The notes under the pieces are model-generated. The model was not told the origin of the DNA. It saw nothing but the letters and a program-made list of their open reading frames with translations, and made no database searches. DNA of 64,000 bases from Alloscardovia macacae (GTDB lineage: Bacteria; Actinomycetota; Actinomycetes; Actinomycetales; Bifidobacteriaceae), in NCBI RefSeq assembly GCF_002259705.1, contig NZ_MWWT01000001.1:248001-312000 (forward strand), written 5' to 3'. Of the stretch, positions 5,626 through 18,590 are shown in pieces. Position numbers and translations under genes: made by a program. How positions within the stretch are numbered: the stretch's first letter is position 1; each line of letters opens with the position of its first letter.

Positions 5626-7113
5626 ATGACAGACCAGAAAGAGACCCAGCAGAAGCGTTCGCGCCTAAAAGACGTAGACCATCTCGACCAGAATAACGAG
5701 ATGGAGCGCGGCCTGAAGAACCGGCACGTGCAGTTCATCGCCATCGGCGGAACCATAGGCACCGGGCTGTTCCTCGGCTCGGGCGAATCCATCGCGCTGA
5801 CCGGCCCGTCTATCATCTTCGTATACATCGCCGTGGGCCTGTTCATGTTTATCCTCATGCGCGCCATCGGCGAGCTCATGTACCGCGACCCGAGCCAGCA
5901 CACCTTCATTAATTTCATCGGCACGTATGTGAGCCCGGCGTGGGGAAAATTCGCCGGATGGTCGTACTGGATAGTGCTCATTCTCATCGGCATGACGGAG
6001 ATAGCCGCCGTATCCACGTACTGTGTGAGCTTTTTCGGCACATTCGGCATCGACGTCTCGTCGTATAAGTGGCTTATCGAGCTCGTCTTCCTCGTCGTGC
6101 TCACAGCGGTAAACCTTATCGCGGTGAAAGTCTTCGGCGAGGCGGAATTCTGGTTCTCTATGATTAAGATAGCCCTTATCATCGGGCTTATCCTCACGGC
6201 TGCCGTCATGGTGGTCATCCACTTTAGCTACCCGGCCCAGACCCTGAATGGCGTGACCTCGCCAGCGGGGACGGTCACCATCCAGAACATCCTCCACGGC
6301 TTCCAGCTCGCGCCGAACGGCTGGATGAGCTTCGTCATGGCGTTCCCTATGGTCTTCTTCGCGTACGAGCTCATCGAGTTCGTGGGCGTGACGGTCTCCG
6401 AGACCGAGAATCCACGCGAGATCCTGCCGAAGGCCATTAATCAGCTCATTTACCGCATTCTCATCTTCTACGTGGGTGCGCTCGTGGCCATCATGTGCAT
6501 CGTTCCGTGGCGTAACTTCGTGCCGGATGCGCAGGGCTCCGTCGCTTCTCCCTTCATTATGGTCTTCCGCTATGCTGGCGTGGACTGGGCAGCGGCTCTC
6601 GTCTTCTTCGTGGTCATCACCGCGGCGAGCTCCGCGCTGAACTCTCTGCTCTACTCGGCTGGCCGTCACCTGTACCAGCTGGCGGATGATGCGCCGTCCA
6701 CGAGTCTGCTCAGCCGCTTGAAGCTCGGCGAGGTCTCCACGCATAAGGTGCCGGCACGCGCTATCATCGCCTCGGCTGTGCTCATCATTCTTTCGCCTAT
6801 CGTGAGCATGATTCCGGCTGTAAAGTCTGCCTTCACGCTCTTCTCCTCGGCGTCCAGTGCGGTCATCATCTTCATCTACATACTGACCATGGTGGCGCAT
6901 TACCGCTACCGTACGAGCCCGGCGTTCGCGCGTGATGGCTTCCTCATGCGCGGGTATCGCGTCTTCGACGTGGTGGGCATCGCCTTCTTCGTCTTCATTT
7001 ACGGCTCGCTTTTCGCCTCGGCCGAGCGCATCGTGCCGGCCATCGCGGGCCTCGTCTGGCTCGTAGGCTTCGGTGCTTACTGCATGCTGAAGAAGGATCC
7101 TGCCCAGGAGTAA
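5626..7113 (+). CDS. APC-superfamily amino-acid permease
   Basis: A 495-residue transporter of the amino acid-polyamine-organocation superfamily, amino acid transporter (AAT) family, which includes the aromatic amino acid, GABA, lysine and D-serine/D-alanine/glycine permeases. After a charged N-terminus, GLKNRHVQFIAIGGTIGTG at about residues 25-45 is the family signature. Twelve hydrophobic segments follow and the protein ends in MLKKDPAQE. The start at ATG 5626 agrees with this signature position. A -10-like TAGACT lies exactly 7 bases before it and no ribosome binding site is present, so the transcript is probably leaderless. Its 3' end overlaps the convergent ApbE gene by 37 bases. The amino acid carried is not clear. 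Confidence 0.9.
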   Translation: MTDQKETQQKRSRLKDVDHLDQNNEMERGLKNRHVQFIAIGGTIGTGLFLGSGESIALTGPSIIFVYIAVGLFMFILMRAIGELMYRDPSQHTFINFIGTYVSPAWGKFAGWSYWIVLILIGMTEIAAVSTYCVSFFGTFGIDVSSYKWLIELVFLVVLTAVNLIAVKVFGEAEFWFSMIKIALIIGLILTAAVMVVIHFSYPAQTLNGVTSPAGTVTIQNILHGFQLAPNGWMSFVMAFPMVFFAYELIEFVGVTVSETENPREILPKAINQLIYRILIFYVGALVAIMCIVPWRNFVPDAQGSVASPFIMVFRYAGVDWAAALVFFVVITAASSALNSLLYSAGRHLYQLADDAPSTSLLSRLKLGEVSTHKVPARAIIASAVLIILSPIVSMIPAVKSAFTLFSSASSAVIIFIYILTMVAHYRYRTSPAFARDGFLMRGYRVFDVVGIAFFVFIYGSLFASAERIVPAIAGLVWLVGFGAYCMLKKDPAQE

Positions 7114-7874
7114 GACCGCTCAGCTTTTTTCTCGGTGTCAATTCTCGCGAAGTTCCACTCGGGCACTGCCGGGTGGCGCAGCCGCTGAGGGTCAGTGAGG
7201 AAAAGCGCTGTGGCCAGACCGTCCGCCCACGCTGTGGGATGGGCGCTCGTCGAGACAGTGACCCAGGAGGCGTAGGTGGCCGTGGTCGCGTCCAGAATGT
7301 GGTGGACTTCCTCTCCCGTATCCAGCGATGTCCAGTGGCGGCGCGAGGGGGAGGAGGCGCACAGAGCAGTGCCTGGCTCGAGGTCCACAGTGCCGAGTGC
7401 CTGGCTGAAATTCCACGGATTTTCGAGGCCTGCGGTGAGATGCTCGGTGGTGTAGATGTCTCCGCCGGCATTAATGGTGTAGGCGCTGACATACTGGTCG
7501 AGGATGTGAGCCATGCGGTCCACTGCGAAGCCCTTTCCAGCAGCACCGAAGTCCAGAGGATGATCACCTTCCTGTCCGAATAGCGGACCATATCCCATTT
7601 TTACGAGGCGCTCGGCGACGAGGGGGCTGAAACGTCCGTCGGTGAGTGCGCCGAGCACGTCATAAATCTCGAAAAGCTCGTCCGCCCAGGAGGGGAAGCG
7701 GCGTAAGGCGGAGGGAGAATTGACCACAGAATCTGGTCGAAAGCGCGAAAATATGCGGTCGAACTCGTCGATGCATGCGTCAAGTGCAGGACGTGCTGCA
7801 CGCACGGACGGTGAGGGGGAGCTCACGAGGATGCCCGTGCCGAACGCCTGAGGAAAGCTGAGAGTATACGGCAT
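7077..7874 (-). CDS. ApbE-type FAD:protein FMN transferase
   Basis: A 265-residue member of the ApbE family, which moves FMN from FAD onto a Thr or Ser of extracytoplasmic proteins, using Mg2+. Visible motifs: LDFGAAGKGFAVDRMA near residue 125, TINAGGDIY near 155, HHILDATTATYASWVTV near 210 and ADGLATALF near 232, which bind FAD and metal. No signal peptide or lipobox is evident, so the enzyme may act inside or leave the cell by another route. The start at ATG 7874 has TAGCGT 7 bases upstream. It lies divergently next to an iron locus that encodes an FMN-binding lipoprotein with a matching acceptor motif, its probable substrate. Confidence 0.9.
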   Translation of the reverse strand: MPYTLSFPQAFGTGILVSSPSPSVRAARPALDACIDEFDRIFSRFRPDSVVNSPSALRRFPSWADELFEIYDVLGALTDGRFSPLVAERLVKMGYGPLFGQEGDHPLDFGAAGKGFAVDRMAHILDQYVSAYTINAGGDIYTTEHLTAGLENPWNFSQALGTVDLEPGTALCASSPSRRHWTSLDTGEEVHHILDATTATYASWVTVSTSAHPTAWADGLATALFLTDPQRLRHPAVPEWNFARIDTEKKAERSYSWAGSFFSMQ

Positions 7875-7993
7875 ATTTTCTACGCTACAGCGTGTGCGCG
7901 AAAAATTCACAGAAAAAACTCTTTATCTTTCAGCGAAATTCCTCTACGCTTAATGAGGGCGCGAAAGCGTCAGAGAGTAAAGGAGCAGAAAGC

Positions 7994-9691
7994 GTGAAGT
8001 ATCGCGATATATTCGGACGCATGGCCGTACTAGCAGGAGCGCTTCTCATGGCTCTCATGCTCGCCGTACCACAGGCGCATGCGGCGGATGCTTCTTCTGC
8101 CACGCCATCCATCCCGCAGTCCGCGAACGTGGACTCGTGGAGCGCGGTCGCTTCTGCCATCCAGACGGACCTTAACGCAGGCGTCGCCTCCCTGAACGCA
8201 GGCGATTCCACCACCGCAGCCACGAGCTTCCAGCGCGCGTATAACGTGGACTACGTGGCATCGAACATGGCCGTGGTCCTCCCAGCGCAGACAGCACAGC
8301 CACTGCACGACGAGCTGCTCGCCTTCACCACAGACGTCTTCGTGGCCGCGAAAGCGAGCACCATCCCAGAGCGCGTCGCAGCTCTCGAACCGCAGCTCAC
8401 GGCAGCCGCCCAGGCTCTCGACGCAGACGCAAACCAGTCAAATCCGCGTGATTACGCGACGGCTCGTGCCCAGAAGACGGCTGAAGAGCGCCAGAAGCTG
8501 GACGCCGCGAAGACGCGCACGAATGCGGGCCGCGGCTCGCGCACATGGTCGGACATCGCAGTGGAGATGACGGGCATCCTCGACCGCGCGCAGACGGCAG
8601 CCACCACGGGAAAGAATGACCGTGAAGGCTCGGATCTCGTGAACCACGCGTACTACCAGTACTACGAAAAGCTCGGCTTCGAAAAGACGGTGATGAGCGC
8701 CATCTCCGGCGACCGCGTCTCCCAGGTGGAAAACCAGTTTAAGGAAACGCGCAAGTCCATGATCGGCGGGAAGTCGGACACGGAAGTAGAAAAGAACGTG
8801 GCCGACCTCAAGCAGATGCTCGTCACCGATGCGAAGATTCTCGACGACGGTGCCGCCTCGAAAGTGAACCCTGTGGTCTCCTTCGTCACCTCCTCCTTCG
8901 GTCAGGCGTTCATCATCCTGCTGCGCGAAGGCCTCGAAGCCATGCTCGTCGTGGCAGCCATTGTGGCCTACCTGGCGAAGGAAGGCCTTAAGCGCATGCT
9001 GAAGTTCATCTACCTCGGCGTGGTGGCGGGCCTGGTGGCCTCGGGCATTATGGCCGCGCTGCTCATTCTTCTCTTCCAGAATGCGGGCTCGCATCAGGAA
9101 GTGTTCGAAGGAGCGACGGCGCTTGTGGCCATGGTCATGCTGCTCTTTACGAGTAACTGGATGCTGGGCAAGTCCTCGCACCAGTCCTGGACACGCTACG
9201 TGGACGATAGGACGAAGGAAAGCGCCTCGAAGGGAAGCGTCTTCTCGCTGGCACTGCTCGCCTTCCTCGCGGTCTTCCGTGAGGGCGCGGAGACGGTCAT
9301 CTTCTACCAGGCCATCATGGGCATGACCTATGACCAGAACTACCTGCCTCTGGTCTGGGGTGCGCTCGCGGCTGTGGTGGTCCTCGTGGGCTTCTTCCTC
9401 GTCTTCCGCTATACCACCGTGAAGATTCCGTATAAGCCATTCTTCGCGACCATGTCCGTGCTCATGGGCATTCTCGTGGTCATCTTCGCGGGCTCGGGTC
9501 TGCATGAGCTCATCGAGGCGGACGTGATCAGTGGAACGTACATGTCCACCTGGCCGACGAACGACTTCCTCGGCATCTACCCGTACGTGCAGACCGTGGG
9601 CTTCCAGCTGGTCATGCTGCTGGTCGTGCTGGGACTGTTCGCGTGGGCAGGCGTGCGTGCGCGTCGTGAACGGCAGGTTCGGGAGGCGTAG
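7994..9691 (+). CDS. FTR1-family iron permease with N-terminal extracytoplasmic domain
   Basis: A 565-residue protein that probably carries iron across the membrane. A signal sequence (residues 1-30, ending AHA-AD) leads into an extracytoplasmic helical domain of about 270 residues, then a seven-helix FTR1 membrane domain. The two FTR1 motifs LREGLEAMLVV and VFREGAETVIFY hold the REXXE-type residues that bind iron. The start is GTG 7994: AAAGGAG lies 9 bases upstream and only this start gives a clean signal peptide. It begins the iron locus. The N-terminal domain plus FTR1 layout matches the permease paired with P19 in Campylobacter. No recognisable DtxR or Fur box was found upstream. Confidence 0.92.
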   Translation: MKYRDIFGRMAVLAGALLMALMLAVPQAHAADASSATPSIPQSANVDSWSAVASAIQTDLNAGVASLNAGDSTTAATSFQRAYNVDYVASNMAVVLPAQTAQPLHDELLAFTTDVFVAAKASTIPERVAALEPQLTAAAQALDADANQSNPRDYATARAQKTAEERQKLDAAKTRTNAGRGSRTWSDIAVEMTGILDRAQTAATTGKNDREGSDLVNHAYYQYYEKLGFEKTVMSAISGDRVSQVENQFKETRKSMIGGKSDTEVEKNVADLKQMLVTDAKILDDGAASKVNPVVSFVTSSFGQAFIILLREGLEAMLVVAAIVAYLAKEGLKRMLKFIYLGVVAGLVASGIMAALLILLFQNAGSHQEVFEGATALVAMVMLLFTSNWMLGKSSHQSWTRYVDDRTKESASKGSVFSLALLAFLAVFREGAETVIFYQAIMGMTYDQNYLPLVWGALAAVVVLVGFFLVFRYTTVKIPYKPFFATMSVLMGILVVIFAGSGLHELIEADVISGTYMSTWPTNDFLGIYPYVQTVGFQLVMLLVVLGLFAWAGVRARRERQVREA

Positions 9692-9752
9692 GCTGAGGCG
9701 TTATCCCAATTTTTAATATTTTTCAGTAATTCAGAAAGAAAGAAGAAACACT

Positions 9753-10394
9753 ATGGCAAAGAAAGCTACAGTAGCAGCTCTGGCACTCCTGCTCGCAGGC
9801 TCCCTGGGACTCGGTGCATGCGGTGCGCAGACTTCCACCTCGAGTGCGAAGTCGGACACGAGTAGCTCGCAGAAGTCTGATGCGAAGTCGGATAACAAGT
9901 CGGAGTCTACGAGCGATGGTGCGGGCTTCGAAGAGTTTCCTATCGGTGACGATAAGGAAGTGGGCCCACTGAACGTGGCGATGGTGTACTTCCAGCCAGT
10001 GGATATGGAGCCAGCAGGTATGGGTCTGTCCGCTGCGGAGTCCAGCTTCCACCTCGAAGCAGATATCCACGCTCTGGCGAATAACGACCTCGGCTATGCG
10101 AAGGGTGACTTCGTGCCAGACCTGACCGTATCCTACGAGATCATAAACAAGTCCACGAATGAGACGGCTGCCTCCGGTACCTTCATGCAGATGAACGCGG
10201 ATGACGGCCCTCACTACGGTGGTAACGTGAAGCTCGACCAGGCTGGTTCCTACACCGTGAAGCTGAGTATCGCATCCCCTGCGGAAAAGGGCTGGGCTCT
10301 GCACGTGGATAAGGAGACGGGTGTGAAGGGCAAGTTCTGGACCACGCCTCTGGAAGTGAGCTACGACTGGGATTACACGCCTATGCAGTGGTAG
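9753..10394 (+). CDS. P19-type periplasmic iron-binding lipoprotein
   Basis: A 213-residue lipoprotein of the P19/Tpd/FetP family, which binds Fe and Cu on the cell surface or periplasm and hands iron to the FTR1 permease. The lipobox LGAC is at about residues 20-23, followed by a Ser/Lys/Asp-rich linker to residue 50. The metal site residues of the family are present: FQPVDMEPAGM (Met), HLEADIHA (His, Glu) and DGPHYGGN (His). It lies 61 bases after the FTR1 gene with AGAAAGAAGAAA before the ATG, so they are probably cotranscribed. The same two-gene order is found in known ferrous-iron systems. It is followed by a palindromic repeat that separates it from the membrane genes. Confidence 0.95.
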   Translation: MAKKATVAALALLLAGSLGLGACGAQTSTSSAKSDTSSSQKSDAKSDNKSESTSDGAGFEEFPIGDDKEVGPLNVAMVYFQPVDMEPAGMGLSAAESSFHLEADIHALANNDLGYAKGDFVPDLTVSYEIINKSTNETAASGTFMQMNADDGPHYGGNVKLDQAGSYTVKLSIASPAEKGWALHVDKETGVKGKFWTTPLEVSYDWDYTPMQW

Positions 10395-10457
10395 TGCCCT
10401 CCTCTGAGGTGCATGCTCCTTTTTCTCCAATCGGAATATTTTCCCGAAAATGGGCAG

Positions 10458-10545
10458 TTTGTAGTCACGAATGACCGTTCACTTTATGAAGTCAAGACAA
10501 GAATGGCTTAACTTCGTCACAGTGGCGGTCATTTGTGACTACAAG
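10458..10545 (+). repeat. 88-bp palindromic repeat, copy 4 (forward, inside the iron locus)
   Basis: The left arm TTTGTAGTCACGAATGAC is perfect; the right arm has two changes, reading GTCATTTGTGACTACAAG. The inner AAGACAAGAATGGCTTAAC matches copy 1, while the block before it is more diverged. It sits between the P19 gene and the DUF2318 gene, and the -10-like TAAGCT at 10585 follows it, so it may split the locus into two transcripts. Confidence 0.85.
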
Positions 10546-10597
10546 TGGCCTAAAAACACTCTAGATAACTGACTGCTCCTGGATTAAGCTAAAAACT

Positions 10598-11863
10598 ATG
10601 CTAGAACAATTCGTCACAGCTCTGCCGGGCTCTCTCGCGCCTATTCTGCTGACCATGGTCATCAGTGCCGTGTGTAAGCCAGCAGATGCGCGCTACCATA
10701 CCACGCGCGTGCGGTATGTGCGCGTGGCCGGCGTGGTTCTGGGTATCGTGGCAGCCATCGTCTTCGCCACTCTGCGGGGGACGGGCCTGCTTACGCAGCG
10801 CACTATCGTGAATCAGCCGACGCTCGTGGCCTGCATCCTCGCGGACATCGCAGCGCTTGTGGCCTTCGCGGCGCTGGTGAAGAATGAGCCAGAGCAGAAA
10901 TTGTATACAGCAGGAAACGTCATCTTCGGTGTCGCGCTCGCGCTGACGTACTTCCGCGCGCTGCCGGACGTCATCCTGCGCGTGACGAACTTCGTGGAAA
11001 CCGGGCAGACGCCGTTTACCTCGGATATGCTGCTGCGCGCGCTCGGCTTCACGCTCGGCATCGCTGCCAGCGTGGTCATCGCCGCTATCTTCTCCGCGCT
11101 CGTCAGCACGGTGGGAGCGCGGATTTTCGCCATCACGGGCATAGCGCTCACCGCGCTCATAGCCGCACAGCACGTCATCGACCTCACTCAGATTCTTTTC
11201 AGCACGCGGGCCATTCGCCTGCCGTCCTTCGCGTTCCGGGCGCTCGTATGGGGGCTGAATAACACGCTCACGCTCGTCATCGCTCAGGCGGTGGTCTTCG
11301 TTATCCCTGTGGCGGCCGCTTTCGTGGCGGGGTGGAAAACGGCGGTAGAGGGGCAGACCATCGCTGAGGTGCGCATACACCGCAAATTTAAGCGTCACGC
11401 GTATGTGGCTGTGGCCTTCAGCCTGCTCGCAGTGCTCGGCGTGGGCGCTGCTCTCACCTACGGTGTGGCCGCTACCCACGTGGAGATAAAGCTGTCCGAG
11501 CCGGAAAAGTATGTCCTCGAAGACGGCGTGGCGAAGATTAAAGCGTCCCAGGTCTCCGACGGTCACCTGCACCGCTTCGAATATAAGGCTTCAGACGGTA
11601 CCACCATGCGGTTCCTCGCCATTAAGAAGGGTAGCGGCGGCATCGTGGTGGTGCTCGACGCGTGTGATAACTGTGGAGATGCGGGATACTACGAAAAGGA
11701 TGGAAAGGTCATCTGTAAGAAGTGTGACGTGGCCATGAACATAGCCACCATAGGCTTTAAGGGTGGGTGTAATCCGGTGCCTATAGACTTCGAGAACGAT
11801 GGCACCACCGTCACCGTCCAGACGTCCGTACTGGATGCGAATTCCTCCTACTTTAGGCGTTAG
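10598..11863 (+). CDS. DUF2318-family membrane protein of the iron locus
   Basis: A 421-residue protein with about eight hydrophobic helices (residues 1-300) and a C-terminal extracytoplasmic DUF2318 domain. That domain holds CDNCG near residue 353 and CKKC near 370, with a further Cys in FKGGCNPVPIDF. The cysteine pairs are expected to bind a metal or Fe-S centre. The family always travels with P19/FTR1 and FtsX-type permeases, but its precise function is not established. It may pass electrons or iron across the membrane. TAAGCT lies 7 bases before the ATG and no ribosome binding site is seen, suggesting a leaderless start separate from the FTR1-P19 transcript. The next gene follows after 12 bases. 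Confidence 0.88.
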   Translation: MLEQFVTALPGSLAPILLTMVISAVCKPADARYHTTRVRYVRVAGVVLGIVAAIVFATLRGTGLLTQRTIVNQPTLVACILADIAALVAFAALVKNEPEQKLYTAGNVIFGVALALTYFRALPDVILRVTNFVETGQTPFTSDMLLRALGFTLGIAASVVIAAIFSALVSTVGARIFAITGIALTALIAAQHVIDLTQILFSTRAIRLPSFAFRALVWGLNNTLTLVIAQAVVFVIPVAAAFVAGWKTAVEGQTIAEVRIHRKFKRHAYVAVAFSLLAVLGVGAALTYGVAATHVEIKLSEPEKYVLEDGVAKIKASQVSDGHLHRFEYKASDGTTMRFLAIKKGSGGIVVVLDACDNCGDAGYYEKDGKVICKKCDVAMNIATIGFKGGCNPVPIDFENDGTTVTVQTSVLDANSSYFRR

Positions 11864-11875
11864 AGAGGTGATGAG

Positions 11876-13183
11876 ATGTACTTTATGCGTATGATCATCC
11901 GCTCGCTGACGCAGGAGCTGAGAAAGCGCCTGCTCATGGGGCTCACGGTGCTCCTCGCAGCTACCGTGTCCACGGCCATGCTCGGCGTGGTCTTCGATGT
12001 GGGCGATAAACTGACCGATGAGCTGTCCACCTATGGGTCGAATATCACCGTTCGGCCGAAGTCGGATGCTGTGCTTTCGGAGCTCTACTCCTCGAGCTCC
12101 ACCTCCACCCCGAGCTCGGCGAAGGCAGACCCGACCTCTTTCATTCACGAGTCAGACCTCGCGAAGATGAAGACCATCTTCTGGGCGTATAACATTCTGA
12201 ACTTCGCACCACAGCTGACACATCACGTGACCGTGAATGGCGTGGAGAACACGCCTGTGGTGGGAACATGGTTTAATAAGACGCTGAACCTGTCTACGGG
12301 CGAGACCACTGTGGTGGGTCTGAAGGGCATGCGAAACTGGTGGCAGGTGCAGGGGTCCTGGGCGAGTGATGATGACTCGCAGAATGGGGAACCTCAGGCT
12401 ATGGTGGGCGCCACCTTCGCATCCGAGCATAACGTCCATGTGGGCGACGAGCTCCAGATAGGCTCGGATGGTCAGAAGGCGAAAGTCACGGGCATCTTCA
12501 CCTCCGGTGATGATGATGATAAAGCCGTCTTCACCACCACCGCACTCCTCCAGAATGTCACGGGCCTGGCGGACTCGGTGAACTACGTGGAAGTCAAAGC
12601 TCTGACCACTCCAGAAAACGACCTCGCGCGCAAAGTGGAAAAGTCTCCAGAAGCCGTCTCGAAGACGGAATGGGAGACGTGGTACTGCACGGCCTACGTG
12701 AGCTCCATAGCCTATCAGATAGAAGAAGTGATCCCGGGCGCAGTGGCGAAGCAGGTACGCCAGGTGGCGGCCCTGCAGGGGAACGTCTTACGTAAGACGC
12801 AGGCCATCATGATAGTCATGACGGTACTCACGCTGCTTGCAGCCACCATAGCCGTGGCGAACCTCATGGCTGCAGCCACAGCGGAGCGCTCGGGAGAGAT
12901 AGCTCTGCGCAAGGCCATCGGGGCGAAGAACAGCGAAGTGATGCGCTTCATCCTCGCGGAGACGGGCATTATCTGCGCTCTCGGAGCAGTGCTCGGCGCG
13001 CTGCTCGGTACGGGCGTGGCGCAGGCCATCGGCCAGGTGGTCTTCCACGCGGGCATCGTCATGCGGCCTATGGTCTTCGTGCTTGTGGCGGTGCTGCTGG
13101 CTCTGACGGTGCTGCTCGCCTCCGTATCTGCTCTTCGCTCCATACTCCACGTGAAACCAGCTGAGGTGCTTCATGGAAGATAA
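11876..13183 (+). CDS. FtsX/MacB-type ABC permease 1 of the iron locus
   Basis: A 435-residue permease: one N-terminal membrane helix (residues 20-42), a large extracytoplasmic domain to about residue 310, then three C-terminal helices. That is the MacB/LolC topology. GEIALRKAIGAKNSEVM, between helices 2 and 3, is the coupling region typical of FtsX-family permeases. Such permeases usually move proteins or transmit force rather than import small solutes. In this locus the role with iron is unproven. GAGAGGTG lies just before the ATG. Its end overlaps the next permease gene by 11 bases, so the two are translationally coupled. Confidence 0.88.
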   Translation: MYFMRMIIRSLTQELRKRLLMGLTVLLAATVSTAMLGVVFDVGDKLTDELSTYGSNITVRPKSDAVLSELYSSSSTSTPSSAKADPTSFIHESDLAKMKTIFWAYNILNFAPQLTHHVTVNGVENTPVVGTWFNKTLNLSTGETTVVGLKGMRNWWQVQGSWASDDDSQNGEPQAMVGATFASEHNVHVGDELQIGSDGQKAKVTGIFTSGDDDDKAVFTTTALLQNVTGLADSVNYVEVKALTTPENDLARKVEKSPEAVSKTEWETWYCTAYVSSIAYQIEEVIPGAVAKQVRQVAALQGNVLRKTQAIMIVMTVLTLLAATIAVANLMAAATAERSGEIALRKAIGAKNSEVMRFILAETGIICALGAVLGALLGTGVAQAIGQVVFHAGIVMRPMVFVLVAVLLALTVLLASVSALRSILHVKPAEVLHGR

Positions 13184-14411
13184 AGTGTATACCGCTGCGG
13201 ACCTCAAGCGCCGTGAGCGCGCGAACCGTGCCATGTTCTGGACTATGATTCGTGGCGCCATTCTGCGCCGCCGCTCTCGCGCTATTATGGCCGTCATCGC
13301 TTCTCTCGTGGGAGCTGCCACGCTGTTCGTGCTCGTCATGGTGTGCATCGTGGTGCCTGCGCAGATGACGGAAGAAATGCGCGCCTATGGTGCGAATCTC
13401 GTGGTGACGAGTAACCAGACGGGAGCCACGGAAAACGGTATCCAGAAAGATATGGTGGAGCATACCACGGAGATGGTGCGCGCCACGGGCTTCGGCGAGA
13501 CACATGCCACGTACCGCTATGATACGGTGCGCGTGAATTCGGCGTCCTACCAAATGGCCGGCATTAACCCGAACGAAGTGCGTTCCATGAATAAGTTCTG
13601 GGATGTGACCGGCTCGTGGCCGAGCGCTGAAAACCAGGTGCTCATCGGCACGGATGTGGCCGAGCGGCTGAGTGTGAAAATTGGCCAAAGCATCACGGTG
13701 GGATACGTGGAAGACGACGCGGTGAATACCATTCTCGACACCGAGGGCACGCGCATGCAGGTGGTGGGCACGGTCAGCACGGGCGGAAACGAGGACTCCA
13801 TGCTGTACGTGACGAACGCGACGCTCGACGCGCTGACCGGCCAGAACGGCCAGAGCGGGCAGAACGGCCAGTCGCGCGGCGCGGACGTCATCGAATACTC
13901 GTCCGAGGCATCCGGCGCAGACCTCGATAAACTCGTGACGAACATTAACGACATGAAGTCCATGAACGTGACCGCCCAGGCCGTGAGCAAGATCTCCCAA
14001 GCGAACGCAAGCATCATCGCCATGCTGACCACGCTCTTCTGGATTATCTCGCTCGTCATCGTGGCGCTCACCCTCGTGGGCGTGTCCACGACCATGACGT
14101 CCATCGTCTCCCAGAGGCGTAATGAGATAGGTCTGCGCAAGGCACTCGGGGCGTCGAACCGGTCCATCGCGGTGGAGTTCTACGTGGAGTCTGCGCTCTA
14201 CGGCGTGGCGGGCGGCCTGCTCGGCGTGCTCGTGGGCTCGGGCGTCGCGTGGGTGCTCATCCGGACGGTGTTCGACCGCGAGACGAGCGTGAACGTGGGG
14301 CTGGGGGCGGCGTGCGTGGCTGTGGCGGCGCTCATCGCGGTGGTGGCGTCCATCCTGCCTGTACGCAAGGCCTCGCGCATCGACCCGGCAGTGGTGCTGC
14401 GCGAAGAGTAG
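13173..14411 (+). CDS. FtsX/MacB-type ABC permease 2 of the iron locus
   Basis: A 412-residue partner of the preceding permease with the same plan: helix at about residues 40-62, extracytoplasmic domain, three C-terminal helices, and NEIGLRKALGASNRSI as coupling segment. The two probably form a heterodimer with the ATPase encoded next. The extracytoplasmic part contains a short QNGQSGQNGQ repeat near residue 225. The ATG lies inside the end of the upstream gene; the next gene follows after 21 bases. The MacB-like fold is certain; the transported substrate is not. Confidence 0.88.
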   Translation: MEDKVYTAADLKRRERANRAMFWTMIRGAILRRRSRAIMAVIASLVGAATLFVLVMVCIVVPAQMTEEMRAYGANLVVTSNQTGATENGIQKDMVEHTTEMVRATGFGETHATYRYDTVRVNSASYQMAGINPNEVRSMNKFWDVTGSWPSAENQVLIGTDVAERLSVKIGQSITVGYVEDDAVNTILDTEGTRMQVVGTVSTGGNEDSMLYVTNATLDALTGQNGQSGQNGQSRGADVIEYSSEASGADLDKLVTNINDMKSMNVTAQAVSKISQANASIIAMLTTLFWIISLVIVALTLVGVSTTMTSIVSQRRNEIGLRKALGASNRSIAVEFYVESALYGVAGGLLGVLVGSGVAWVLIRTVFDRETSVNVGLGAACVAVAALIAVVASILPVRKASRIDPAVVLREE

Positions 14412-14432
14412 GCTCGGGAAGAAAGGCTAGTT

Positions 14433-15224
14433 ATGGAAAACGAAAAGCAGAGCAGCGACGTCGTCCTGCATTTAGACCACGTTTCGAAGATATACGGCGA
14501 GCTGCACGCGCTCGACGACCTGACCTTGAGCGTTCCGCGCGGCCAATGGCTGTCCATCGTCGGCTCGTCCGGCTCGGGGAAGACGACGCTTATGAACATC
14601 ATCGCGTGCCTCGATACGCCGAGCCGCGGGTCCGTCGTGCTGCGCGGCGTGGACGTGTCCGGCCTGCGTGAGCGCGAGCTGGCAGACGTGCGTAAGAACG
14701 TCATAGGGCTGGTCTTCCAGAAGTTCTACCTCGTGCAGCATCTGACCGCGCTGGAGAACGTTATGACTGCCCAATACTACCACTCCGTCGTGGATGAGTC
14801 CCAAGCGCTGGACGCTCTGCGCCAGGTGGGACTCGAAGACAGGGCTCATCATCTGCCGAGTCAGCTTTCGGGTGGCGAGCAGCAGCGCGTGTGCATAGCG
14901 CGTGCGCTGATTAACTGCCCAGAAATCCTCCTCGCTGACGAGCCGACGGGTAACCTCGACGAAGCGAACGAACACATCGTTCTCGACTTGTTCAAGCGCC
15001 TGCACGAGCAGGGTACCACCATCATCGTGGTCACGCATGACTCCACTGTGGCTAGCCAGGCGCAGCGCGAAATTATGCTGAACCACGGCAAGCTCGTGGG
15101 CGAGCAGTGGAATGACGAGGCGGCTCGCGAGGAGTATGAAGCTCTCGTGGGGTCGTCAAGCCTCGGGACGTTCGACGATCCGACGAAATCGGCGAAAGAT
15201 ACGCTCAGTGGGTCTGAGGAGTAG
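14433..15224 (+). CDS. ABC transporter ATP-binding protein of the iron locus
   Basis: A 263-residue ATPase of the LolD/MacB class. Walker A GSSGSGKTTL is near residue 46, the Q-loop reads VFQKFYLV, the signature LSGGEQQRV, Walker B ILLADEPT, and the switch His lies in VVTHDS. AAGAAAGG precedes the ATG. It energises the two FtsX-type permeases encoded just before it. The tail after residue 225 is acidic and unlike the core. The gene continues directly into the FMN-binding lipoprotein gene. Confidence 0.95.
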   Translation: MENEKQSSDVVLHLDHVSKIYGELHALDDLTLSVPRGQWLSIVGSSGSGKTTLMNIIACLDTPSRGSVVLRGVDVSGLRERELADVRKNVIGLVFQKFYLVQHLTALENVMTAQYYHSVVDESQALDALRQVGLEDRAHHLPSQLSGGEQQRVCIARALINCPEILLADEPTGNLDEANEHIVLDLFKRLHEQGTTIIVVTHDSTVASQAQREIMLNHGKLVGEQWNDEAAREEYEALVGSSSLGTFDDPTKSAKDTLSGSEE

Positions 15225-15238
15225 GAGGAATCATAATA

Positions 15239-15790
15239 ATGAACTCTAGCGTAACGAAAAATGCCGCACTCGCAGGCGTGGGCGTAGTCGCCGCATCGCT
15301 GCTCCTCGCGGGGTGCGGTTCGAGCGCGCCGGCTGCGGGGGATAACGCGGATCTGCAGAGTAACTCGACGGCGAACAGCTCGTCTTCGTCAGCAGGCACG
15401 AACGGAACAAACGGCTCGGCGGGCGCGGACGAGAACGTCAGTAATGAATTGAAATTCCCAGACGCGAAAGCAGATACGGGAACGTACGGCGACGGTACCT
15501 ATACGGTGAGCGGACACTACGGCGAGCACAGCGCGAGCACGCTCGACGTCTCCGTGACCGTGGGCGCGGGGAAGGTGACGGCCGTCGGGGTAAAGCCGAC
15601 GACGAGCTCTGCCATCTCGAAAAAGTACGGTGATGACTTCGTCAAGGCCGTATCCGGCGAAGTCGTGGGCAAAGACCTTAAAGACTTAAAGCTCAGCGTG
15701 GTGGCCGGAGCGAGCTGGACCACGGACGCATTCAACCAGGCTCTCGTGAATGTGCGCGGCGAGGCGTCCGTGCAGGCGGGGGCGCAGTAG
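15239..15790 (+). CDS. FMN-binding-domain lipoprotein, probable ApbE substrate
   Basis: A 183-residue lipoprotein. The lipobox LLAGC ends at Cys26, then a Ser/Asn/Gly-rich linker runs to about residue 65 before the FMN-binding domain, which starts at YGDGTYTVSGHYG. The motif AGASWTTDAF at residues 156-165 fits the ApbE acceptor pattern (S/A-G-A-S/T-x-T), and Thr161 is the predicted FMN attachment residue. Its ATG has AGGAGG 9 bases upstream, 14 bases after the ABC ATPase gene, so it closes the iron operon. It likely carries electrons outside the membrane, for example to keep iron reduced for P19/FTR1. The covalent FMN is an inference from the motif and the divergent ApbE gene. Confidence 0.88.
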   Translation: MNSSVTKNAALAGVGVVAASLLLAGCGSSAPAAGDNADLQSNSTANSSSSSAGTNGTNGSAGADENVSNELKFPDAKADTGTYGDGTYTVSGHYGEHSASTLDVSVTVGAGKVTAVGVKPTTSSAISKKYGDDFVKAVSGEVVGKDLKDLKLSVVAGASWTTDAFNQALVNVRGEASVQAGAQ

Positions 15791-15879
15791 GCGCGTTTCG
15801 TGTCCTGTAGAGTTCATGACGTATACTTGAATAACTGTTAGATAATATGCGCAGTATCTAGCATAAAAGATGATGTAAT

Positions 15880-15953
15880 GCTCTCGCCGGGGCGTTGGAC
15901 CCCTCTCGGATGGGTAGAGGGGTTGAGGACGCTAGGCGAGGGCAAATCTTTTT
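15880..15953 (+). ncRNA. Structured RNA candidate or large terminator
   Basis: GCTCTCGCC (15880-15888) pairs with GGCGAGGGC (15935-15943) and encloses a second helix, CCCCTC with GAGGGG, plus a possible GCGT/ACGC helix; a T run (15949-15953) follows. Upstream, TTGAAT (15828-15833) and a TAGATAAT-like box could form a promoter. It could be a small RNA or the terminator of the iron operon. It lies in the gene-free stretch 15791-16352, which otherwise holds only the broken reading frame at 15985-16203 and a terminator. I do not recognise a family. Confidence 0.45.
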
Positions 15954-15984
15954 AACCGGCATAAAAGCTACGTAGATTAGTAGA

Positions 15985-16203
15985 TTATGGTTCGGGAGTG
16001 CTGGTTTCATCCACGAGATGACGAATGAACTCTTTCGCTGCTCTTATGTCCTGATACTTCGGAGCAGTACCGCCATACTTATTTGAGAATTTTTCGATAG
16101 GAGTGAGCTTTTCACGACGCGAGGATACGTGTGGGGAAGGATGGAGCGAAAATAAATGGTCTGAAAACGGCTTAAAACCTTGTATCTCTTTTTCACAGCT
16201 TTT
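15985..16203 (-). pseudogene. Start-less coding remnant
   Basis: On the minus strand 72 codons are open between a TAG and a TAA with no ATG, GTG or TTG near the front. The translation includes REKLTPIEKFSNKYGG and KYQDIRAAKEFIRHLVDE, protein-like in composition, and the codons used (CGT, AAG, CTC, ATC, GGC, CCG) are those favoured in neighbouring genes. I read it as the tail of a decayed gene, but chance cannot be excluded and no family is recognised. Confidence 0.35.
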
Positions 16204-16286
16204 CTAGCTCACAATGGCGGCGTCCTGAAAAGCTCATTCCTGCATCGTAGGCTGGCGAGTCCGTGTACACCGCACTCGTCATAGAG

Positions 16287-16331
16287 AAGGGGTAGCGTCT
16301 TCGAGCTCATTACTCGAGAGCACTACCCCTT
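16287..16331. terminator. Terminator of the peptidase gene
   Basis: AAGGGGTAG (16287-16295) pairs with CTACCCCTT (16323-16331), with an inner CTCGAG-type helix. It lies just past the end of the minus-strand peptidase gene and could act in both directions. Confidence 0.75.
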
Positions 16332-16352
16332 CATGCCGTGTTCTTCTCTCTT

Positions 16353-18590
16353 CTAGGTCTTGCGATGTCGCCGCACCATAAGCACAGCTGCTCCGGCCGC
16401 CGTCAGCACCAGAATGAGCGCGCTCGCAGTGACCACGTCCGCGCCGGTCTTCGCGAGAACGCTGCTTTTCTCGGTCTGAGGAGATGGGGCTGCAGACGCA
16501 GACGTCTTCACGCGCTTCTCCTCTGGAGCGTCTGTAGTGTCTGGAATATCTGGAGCGTCTGGAGTAGACGGTGAGGACGCGGCCTCTCCAGCCCTGGCGG
16601 CCTCCCCGCCGGACTCACTAGCCCCAGCCCCAGCACTCCCAGCAAACCCACGCACACTGCACAGCTCCCCATACGCTCCGTCCTGAGGCACAGTTCCGTT
16701 CAGCAGATATGAGACCATGATGTCATTCGCGCACGCGTACCCCGCGCCTGTACGCAGCCAGGCCACGTGCTGCGCGCCCTCCACGCTGAGCAGACTGCCG
16801 CCGAGCGCGCGGGCGAGGATCTCCCCGTTTGCGTATGGCGTGGCAGGGTCGTGCGTGGTGGAGACGACGAGCGTCGGTGGCAGGCTGAGTGCGAGGTTTT
16901 CCACGTGAGTTCCAGGAGCATCCGCCGAGAGATTTCCCGCGAACGGCCACGCTGAGCAGGCGCTGAGGCTACCGATGCCGTGATACTGCGCGCCTGGGTC
17001 GCGGTATGGCGCGGCAGCGTAGAGCATGGTCTGCACGCGGATGGAGTTTTCGAGAGACGCGCCTGCAGGATTCGCCCCGTCCGCGCAGGTGACGGCCGTG
17101 TAGGCGGCGTTTCCGTAGCCGTCCGTGTCCTCGAAGTTCGAGTAGAGGCGCACGTATTCCGGCATGATCTGCCCCGCGTGGATTTGCGCGAGCCCGTACG
17201 CGAGCACCGGCCAATCATCCTGACTGTACAGGCCGCCGGACAGCGCGGTGACGGCCACGTCGAAGCTGAGCGACGTCGTGCGCTCGGTACCGAAGAGATT
17301 CTCAGTATGCGTGAGAGGCTGCGTGGCCAGAGGCCTCAGGATATTCTGCACTTGCTGTGTAGCGAGCGAGACCGCGTCATCCGCGAGGTCGCCGTCATGC
17401 GGCTGCACGTCCGCGAGCTGCAGCGGACAGGCGGCCGTCCGATTATCCGGGATGCCGCCGTCCGTCAGCTCGGCCCACGTCTGCGCGCGTGCCGACAGAG
17501 AGAAGCACCACTGCGCGAATTGCTCAAAGGTATTCTGGAACGCGCTCGCCTGCGTGAGATCCAGCGCATTCAGCGCGCGCAGCTGCTCGTCCGTCAGCGC
17601 GGTCGTCGCGTCCGCAGCCGTGGGCGCCGTGCCCTCGTACGGGCTGACCGCGCCGTCGAGCACGAGCCGCCCGACGCGCTGCGGGAAGCTTCGCGCGTAC
17701 ACGTATCCGAGCCGCGTCCCGTACGAGAGGCCCACGAAGTTCAATTTTTCCTCTCCCAGCACGCTGCGCACCACGTCCATATCCTGAGCCGCACTCGTGC
17801 TGTCCATATTCCTGAGGAACAGCGCGCGCTGCTCGTCCGTCAGACCCAGAGCGCGACCCGTATAGGAGAAGCAGGAACGCACGTACTCGCGGGTGCGCGC
17901 CACATTCGCCGCAGTCTGCGCGGACAGGTCATCCGTATACACGGCAGGAGCGCCGGCAGAAACGTCGCGGAACTCGTCCACCGCACACTGCGCGAACGGC
18001 AGCGAACTGCCCACACCGCGCGGGTCGAGCCCTACGAGGTCATACGACTCGTTCAGCGCGCGCATCTGCGGGGTATCGAGCACCTCCGCCACATACTCAG
18101 ACGCCTTACCGCCCGGACCGCCATTATTAAAAAGAAGCATGCCTTTCTTCTGACCCGTAGCAGGGAAAATGTTCAGATGCAGAGCCACATTCCCCGCATC
18201 TGGCTGCGCGTAGTCAATGGGCACGATGATGAACGCCGAGGTAAACGAGCCGAAGTCCTCCTGCTGAGTCACGCCCGTGAGCTGCTGCGTGTAATACTTC
18301 TGGAGGGTGGGTGGGGTGTCGGGTGCGGTCTCGCTGTCAGAAGGCGAGGCAGACGATGGAATCGGCTCTCCGATGCGGTACGTGCCATCCTCCTCAAGGA
18401 ACGCCTCGCTGTACGGCGTCGCTTCGAGGGCAGCTGTGAGCTCCTCGGTGCTGACGGAGTCGGGACCCTCAGTAGCGGACGCGACGGGTGGGGTGAATAT
18501 CAGGGAGATGAATGAAAAAATGCATGCGAGAGCGGCTGTGCTCGCACGTGTACGAAATCTGCGCGTCGCGCGGTGGTGTAACGTCATCAT
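16353..18590 (-). CDS. Wall-anchored alpha/beta-hydrolase (tripeptidyl-aminopeptidase type)
   Basis: A 745-residue secreted enzyme. The signal peptide covers residues 1-39. The hydrolase shows NNGGPGGKAS (oxyanion region), the nucleophile elbow GLSYGTRLG, the acid in VSTTHDPATPY and the His in EGAQHVAWL. These make it a relative of the Streptomyces tripeptidyl aminopeptidases and prolyl peptidases (S33 type). A Pro/Asp/Ala-rich linker with PDAPDIPDTTDAPEE-type repeats leads to LAKTG, a hydrophobic helix and RRHRKT, the sortase anchor; LAxTG rather than LPxTG suggests a class E sortase. It probably trims peptides at the cell surface. It is transcribed alone, with weak RBS-like GAAGAG before the ATG. 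Confidence 0.9.
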   Translation of the reverse strand: MMTLHHRATRRFRTRASTAALACIFSFISLIFTPPVASATEGPDSVSTEELTAALEATPYSEAFLEEDGTYRIGEPIPSSASPSDSETAPDTPPTLQKYYTQQLTGVTQQEDFGSFTSAFIIVPIDYAQPDAGNVALHLNIFPATGQKKGMLLFNNGGPGGKASEYVAEVLDTPQMRALNESYDLVGLDPRGVGSSLPFAQCAVDEFRDVSAGAPAVYTDDLSAQTAANVARTREYVRSCFSYTGRALGLTDEQRALFLRNMDSTSAAQDMDVVRSVLGEEKLNFVGLSYGTRLGYVYARSFPQRVGRLVLDGAVSPYEGTAPTAADATTALTDEQLRALNALDLTQASAFQNTFEQFAQWCFSLSARAQTWAELTDGGIPDNRTAACPLQLADVQPHDGDLADDAVSLATQQVQNILRPLATQPLTHTENLFGTERTTSLSFDVAVTALSGGLYSQDDWPVLAYGLAQIHAGQIMPEYVRLYSNFEDTDGYGNAAYTAVTCADGANPAGASLENSIRVQTMLYAAAPYRDPGAQYHGIGSLSACSAWPFAGNLSADAPGTHVENLALSLPPTLVVSTTHDPATPYANGEILARALGGSLLSVEGAQHVAWLRTGAGYACANDIMVSYLLNGTVPQDGAYGELCSVRGFAGSAGAGASESGGEAARAGEAASSPSTPDAPDIPDTTDAPEEKRVKTSASAAPSPQTEKSSVLAKTGADVVTASALILVLTAAGAAVLMVRRHRKT

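Follow-up and report, generated by a model that had tools for sequence, protein, structure and literature searches.

A flavin transferase probably dedicated to the SifE lipoprotein of a bfeUO-sif-type iron-uptake locus in Alloscardovia macacae

Within a 64,000-nucleotide stretch of the Alloscardovia macacae genome (contig NZ_MWWT01000001.1, positions 248,001–312,000; hereafter, the window), seven genes follow one another in the order FTR1, P19, DUF2318, two FtsX-type permeases, an ATP-binding cassette (ABC) ATPase and a flavin mononucleotide (FMN)-binding lipoprotein, SifE. The order of the first six is that of the P19/bfeUO-sif iron system. An apbE gene, for a flavin adenine dinucleotide (FAD):protein FMN transferase, lies divergent at the head of the row. 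What does a flavin transferase do beside an iron-uptake system?

The cluster is of the bfeUO-sifABCDE kind of Bifidobacterium breve, a published kind of iron-uptake locus. In B. breve UCC2003 the same seven genes stand in the same order, bfeUO and sifABCDE are induced by iron limitation, and sifE is annotated as FMN-binding (Lanigan 2017, PMC5449479). The B. breve apbE gene came from the same iron-limitation screen as the sif genes and was put under iron–sulfur (Fe-S) assembly and repair because of a Salmonella phenotype. By locus tag it lies far from the cluster (Bbr_1825 against Bbr_0221–0227), whereas apbE of the window is divergent at its head.

The best explanation of the whole, to which we assign a probability of about 0.7, is a P19-type iron-uptake locus with its own flavin transferase acting on SifE. 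A dedicated flavin transferase for a locus of this published type is well supported; the neighbouring ApbE very probably attaches a flavin to SifE, apparently while SifE is still within the cell and awaiting export. The tie of ApbE to SifE in a P19 iron locus is the new part. It supplies a specific partner, and with it a specific test, for an iron system of many bacteria whose mechanism has yet to be settled, and it offers an alternative reading of the published B. breve apbE phenotype.

ApbE and SifE at the two ends of the locus

SifE (15239–15790, forward strand) was assigned by its motif, lipobox, family and fold. The window copy returned no match to Pfam FMN_bind at an E-value of 0.001, and the FMN-binding label therefore needed separate proof. 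A genome-wide FMN_bind search at E ≤ 10 gave a single match, which is SifE itself (window 15536–15748, E 0.013, below the family cut-off). In the SifE family alignment 32 of the 33 members match FMN_bind at E ≤ 1, the best at 5e-8, and the sole exception is the window copy. The AlphaFold2 model of SifE is confident from about residue 70, and its best structural match is a solved FMN-bind domain (PDB code: 8p2a; Z 10.0, with a root-mean-square deviation (rmsd) of 1.9 over 87 residues), followed by 3o6u (Z 9.1, rmsd 3.0 over 95). NqrC (8a1u; Z 8.0, rmsd 2.8 over 92) is level with unrelated folds such as IscU (8.3), and Foldseek alone returned no match for the model at E ≤ 0.001. As modelled, SifE appears to have the FMN_bind fold, and the seventh gene of the locus, a position for FMN-binding or thioredoxin-like proteins, belongs to the FMN_bind family.

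A Cys behind a hydrophobic stretch, with lipobox-like triplets, is found in 71/71 aligned SifE sequences (Cys26 in the window). The motif AGASWT[ST], invariant in the same 71, lies towards the C-terminus, with 19–35 residues beyond the candidate flavin-bearing serine (Ser159 of the window copy). Because the iterated SifE profile also caught P19 N-termini, those matches were dropped by position. Set against the flavinylation motif DxxS/TGAS/T, the window sequence SVVAGAS retains the Gly, the Ala and the acceptor Ser, whereas the Asp has become Ser and the first S/T is Ala. The Asp is kept in many relatives.

The apbE gene occupies 7077–7910 on the reverse strand, with two candidate starts (GTG at 7910 or ATG at about 7874). 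Its product, which has no recognisable signal peptide, scores above the Pfam cut-off for ApbE (4e-26), matches solved ApbEs at 3e-6, and is the only ApbE found in the window genome. K126, D151, H204, D230 and T234 are invariant in 27/27 linked ApbEs and kept in the window protein; some of these residues are presumably catalytic. The first-pass annotation had read the row at 7077–15790 as an ApbE gene divergent at the head of genes running from FTR1 to an FMN lipoprotein. Each gene was recovered where it had been placed, from the open reading frame (ORF) list and Pfam and, at the last position, from FMN_bind family and fold, and the locus is confirmed as real.

Joint occurrence of ApbE and SifE

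Co-occurrence was followed through a sample of 121 genomes of the Bifidobacteriaceae, for which 80 P19 loci were fetched besides that of the window. P19 is present in 81 of these genomes and ApbE in 77. SifE follows the ATPase in 72 of the 81 P19 genomes, as a separate frame in 70 and continuous with the ATPase in two (G022 and G033), and every one of the 72 has an ApbE. ApbE is missing from eight of the P19 genomes (G071, G084, G100, G101, G103, G107, G109 and G116), and none of the eight has SifE. A profile of the 27 linked ApbEs found no match at E ≤ 1 in these eight genomes, which are 98–99% complete; four of four SifE-bearing controls match it at <1e-109. The SifE profile gave only weak matches there (best E 0.0035), confined to the N-terminal part and none reaching the motif. 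The survey of ApbE alongside P19/DUF2318 loci that the first-pass annotation had proposed comes out in favour of the association, and the conclusion that apbE and the FMN lipoprotein gene belong together is supported.

In a quick tree built from four of the core proteins, absence of SifE and absence of ApbE trace, within the family, to a shared pair of branches. By branch length, the probability that two ApbE losses would both fall on those stems is about 0.0005, a rough figure with the branch of G009 left out; Fisher's exact test over genomes gives 2.8e-10, a value that ignores kinship. Where apbE is at the locus, it and sifE flank six genes that have been retained, one on each side, and a single deletion therefore explains the joint absence poorly. 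Four Bifidobacteriaceae among the named loci (the best 80 of at least 500 and biased to close relatives) also have the ATPase and no SifE: Bifidobacterium sp. ESL0784, B. aemilianum, B. bombi and Bombiscardovia coagulans. The absence of sifE from the bumblebee species B. bombi and B. bohemicum has been reported, in a passage that does not connect it with apbE (PMC5449479). A thioredoxin as substitute for SifE was considered and rejected, as none was recognised by eye, with no profile search, in the frames after the ATPase of the SifE-less loci read, namely nine loci (among the frames listed) and the four named ones (frames with a match, a motif or more than 150 residues).

The position of apbE is less constant than its presence. 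In 41 of the 81 family loci it lies within the fetched stretch, 38 times divergent ahead of FTR1 and three times on the same strand. Across the order (a sample of 297 genomes), FtrD exceeded the cut-off in 32, 19 of them outside the family, and six matches below the family cut-off were dropped. ApbE is present in 17 of those 19. Six of the 19 loci are on contigs that end too early, and the remaining 13 all carry both an FMN-bind gene and apbE, the latter downstream on the same strand in 11 and divergent at the head in two. Conservation of apbE beside the locus in relatives is seen within the order and rarely beyond Actinomycetota: the link between apbE and the locus is conserved in the order, and adjacency only in part.

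ApbE could instead serve Fe-S repair or another cytosolic protein and owe its place at the locus to shared iron regulation only, which is close to the published view of the B. breve mutant, itself based on the Salmonella phenotype (PMC5449479); cytosolic ApbEs are, moreover, known to flavinylate soluble fumarate reductase (PMC12052999). We regard this as very unlikely given the joint absence of ApbE and SifE in 8/8 genomes and given that no second FMN_bind protein was found in the window genome at E ≤ 10. The mutants bear on it as well. Like the sifA–E mutants, the B. breve apbE::Tn5 strain (Bbr_1825) grows normally on ciclopirox and shows sensitivity to dipyridyl and to phenanthroline; the pattern is unlike that of the bfeUO and apbC mutants, and on ciclopirox in particular the strain resembles sif and not apbC (PMC5449479). 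The authors suggested Fe-S cluster defects. We infer instead that the phenotype may reflect lost flavinylation of SifE.

Several observations weigh against a flavin transferase dedicated to SifE. Genome G009 (76% complete) has P19 and only a distant ApbE, and is a ninth genome without SifE; eight genomes retain the iron system without SifE at all. The joint losses number only two, and an independent-pairs sign test does not reach significance (p 0.25–0.5). In 40 of the 81 family loci apbE lies outside the fetched stretch, and among the ten named loci from outside Actinomycetota with at least 2.6 kb past the ATPase, just one includes it (L217, Clostridium minihomine); L201 also has ApbE at the locus, on a contig ending soon after. 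The motif departs from the canonical one, with Ala for the first S/T in Bifidobacterium-type SifE and Ser for Asp in the window, and one order-level protein (L239) has AGGS. The acceptor Ser is less favoured than Thr and is labelled more weakly, while an Asp-to-Ala change has little effect (PMC12052999). The apbE::Tn5 strain is milder than the sif mutants on dipyridyl, and an mntH mutant is also normal on ciclopirox (PMC5449479), so the pattern shared by apbE and sif is not specific. The search for other ApbE substrates in the genome covered FMN_bind only, substrate classes such as DUF2271 and DUF3570 not having been searched. Finally, no membrane electron donor is encoded; of the His and Cys residues in the membrane part of SifA, the DUF2318 protein, none is invariant or nearly so, and on that ground SifA was rejected as an electron conduit.

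Two observations on ApbE stand apart from these. In G114 (contig C19, about 14258–15809) a second ApbE and a second, weakly matching SifE-like domain (E 3e-4) are about 0.7 kb apart, as if the two were a second pair of substrate and enzyme. G016 and G040 carry a full-length ApbE of another type and have no P19 match.

The compartment of flavin attachment

The open frame of apbE in the window allows at most 281 residues and has no hydrophobic N-terminus; neither the signal peptide nor the lipobox of an exported lipoprotein ApbE is seen in a hydrophobicity scan. The scan was run on stop-to-stop frames, which makes the choice of start immaterial, with a threshold of 1.9 over 12 residues, and covered the ApbEs of 60 of the 72 SifE-bearing genomes. 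The threshold is reached by 0/60 SifE-type ApbEs (highest 1.88), 71/71 SifE (lowest 1.90) and 80/81 P19; the scan is not a signal predictor, and the separation of 1.88 from 1.90 is narrow. Among the 13 order-level ApbEs, ten reach values up to 1.66, one has only 8 residues ahead of its domain and two could not be placed. Searches for TatC found none in 18/18 family genomes, with controls positive in 11/14, and TatC is present in one of four further genomes of the order. A motif for twin-arginine translocation (Tat) is absent from 71/71 SifE, though ten have RR before the Cys.

As it lacks an export signal, ApbE is unlikely to work at the cell surface. There are three options: SifE receives its FMN before Sec exports it, ApbE gets out of the cell by an unrecognised route, or the substrate of ApbE is something other than SifE. 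The lack of an export signal on ApbE, the lipoprotein-like N-terminus of SifE and the failure to find TatC together make cytosolic flavinylation before Sec export probable. This would fit the statement in a review that a motif of seven residues is enough when it lies close to a terminus (PMC12052999).

The second option would have ApbE leave the cytosol without a recognisable signal and modify SifE at the membrane or beyond it, while SifE is being exported or afterwards. In its favour, a review describes the majority of ApbEs as apparently secreted, and reports that an ApbE expressed in the cytosol without its first 20 residues failed to replace the exported one (PMC12052999). This option is nevertheless quite unlikely, as none of the 60 linked ApbEs has a hydrophobic N-terminal segment, those of L239, L196 and L205 have just 8–21 residues between the upstream stop and the domain, and FAD would be required outside the cell.

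We put about even odds on the fuller form of attachment before export, in which P19 systems of Actinomycetota would have a dedicated cytosolic ApbE that flavinylates the lipoprotein precursor, and the FMN-loaded precursor would then pass through Sec. Sec is proposed because searches of Bifidobacteriaceae genomes turned up no Tat translocase, and two points confine the proposal to Actinomycetota, namely the loci of other phyla and the lack of specificity in the mutant pattern. Cytosolic attachment ahead of export would be unusual, and it is testable. Sec substrates, as a rule, receive their cofactors outside. FMN attachment before Sec export would, if true, contradict this rule, and would suggest a way for the cell to flavinylate a surface protein without exporting FAD.

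The ApbE of Klebsiella fumarate reductase likewise has no signal peptide; its substrate is soluble, whereas the candidate substrate in the window is an exported lipoprotein (PMC12052999). Meheust 2021 (PMC8238504) surveyed flavinylation targets with a filter on a signal peptide or lipidation site in the target gene, and signal-less ApbEs are not described in its account of the P19 system.

The iron system around SifE

The six core genes have homologues at the locus in 81/81 P19-positive family genomes (FTR1 is truncated by the contig end in G009), so the arrangement is not due to chance. All are on the forward strand. FTR1 (7994–9691; Pfam 2e-39) is a BfeU-type iron permease, most likely starting at GTG 7994 after GGAG and not at the ORF-list start of 7892. 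P19 (9753–10394; Pfam P19/Iron_transport 2e-62), the BfeO iron-binding protein, has a lipoprotein-like N-terminus. SifA (10598–11863; Pfam FtrD-like 2e-32) is a DUF2318/FtrD-like membrane protein with a C-terminal CxxC-CxxC-C domain, whose cysteines are invariant. Two FtsX/MacB-type permeases follow, SifB (11876–13183; FtsX 4e-15, MacB_PCD 7e-14) and SifC (13173–14411; FtsX 2e-20, MacB_PCD 3e-6), and then SifD (14433–15224; ABC_tran 1e-34), an ABC ATPase of the FtsE/LolD/MacB type whose top NCBIfam matches (FtsE, MacB, bacteriocin exporter, LolD) are each below their own cut-off.

P19 would capture iron outside the membrane and FTR1 would import it, assisted by SifA and by the MacB/LolCDE-like complex SifBCD, most likely via mechanical coupling to proteins outside. 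SifE would be a Sec-exported lipoprotein bearing one FMN on Ser159, attached by the neighbouring ApbE. The FMN would probably be joined in the cytosol, close to the SifE C-terminus and before Sec crossing, because ApbE has no recognisable export signal. SifE may act as a redox partner, the role that thioredoxin-like proteins may fill in Proteobacteria, and would most likely reduce, or keep reduced, the iron (or copper) on P19/SifA; a part in iron reduction is plausible. The covalent FMN, the place in the cell where it is attached, the electron donor and the direction of electron flow are the parts of this scheme that we infer.

Electrons could conceivably run the other way, with Fe2+ oxidised during FTR1 transport and SifE carrying the electrons off, since yeast Ftr1p takes up iron solely as Fe3+ that a ferroxidase has generated on the spot (as reviewed in the Brucella FtrB paper). 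This is unlikely: most Proteobacteria have a predicted thioredoxin at the SifE position, proposed as a source of reducing power (Liu 2018, PMC6083913). Low redox potentials are, besides, typical of flavins, and make them ill-suited to taking electrons from Fe2+.

In a second suggestion of the first-pass annotation, the ABC part would move electrons or redox proteins. The only point for this is that the genes adjoin. FtsX/MacB/LolCDE-type complexes couple ATP to work on outside proteins, and SifBCD match permeases and an ATPase of this type; we consider the suggestion highly improbable and find it unsupported.

Its further observation, that a flavin branch replaces the thioredoxins, holds in that the FMN lipoprotein is present, and is not new. 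FMN-binding proteins in place of thioredoxins in P19-type loci are reported by Liu 2018 (PMC6083913) and Meheust 2021 (PMC8238504), the latter describing P19 and FTR1 with an FMN-bind gene, mostly in Gram-positives, and stating the parallel with thioredoxin. In the P19 system of Campylobacter jejuni 81-176 (genes 1649–1656) the first six genes and their order are as in the window, and thioredoxins hold the seventh and eighth positions, where the window has the FMN protein (PMC6083913).

The model of SifA has a predicted local distance difference test score (pLDDT) of 91.6. Foldseek returned no PDB match for it at E ≤ 0.001, and a SifA profile had no match to PDB sequences below E 0.4. A second aligner returned helical transporters and others, the best being 7eeb_L (Z 12.0, rmsd 5.9 over 214), a likeness within the range that helical bundles can give without kinship.

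The divergent region between apbE and FTR1 (7874–7993) contains a stretch at about 7913–7950 that aligned sequences of five genus members conserve, as do G005, G021 and G033 in part; it is a probable FTR1 promoter. The tree neighbours of the window genome are four genomes of its own genus and then the group containing G021. A scan of 6000–17500 with the sigma-70 consensus found no promoter-like site, and the 18-base B. breve operator motif is absent from the window at up to three mismatches.

Further features were noted among the related loci. The continuous ATPase and SifE frames, with no stop between, are at 11700–13484 of L105 (G022) and 11788–13185 of L076 (G033). The PDB entries 3o6u (CPE2226, Clostridium perfringens) and 2kzx, solved structures of uncharacterised proteins, may be components of P19-type systems; the FMN-bind protein from the P19 locus of a clostridium matches them at E 0.0015 and 0.0003, respectively. 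In Bifidobacterium minimum (L204, 10001–11331) the DUF2318 match has four stops in frame, the gene being broken or misassembled. Outside Actinomycetota, further FtsX-like permease frames were seen by eye past the FMN-bind position in L206, L215, L217, L218 and L221, and in L206, L215 and L217 they are followed by another ATPase match.

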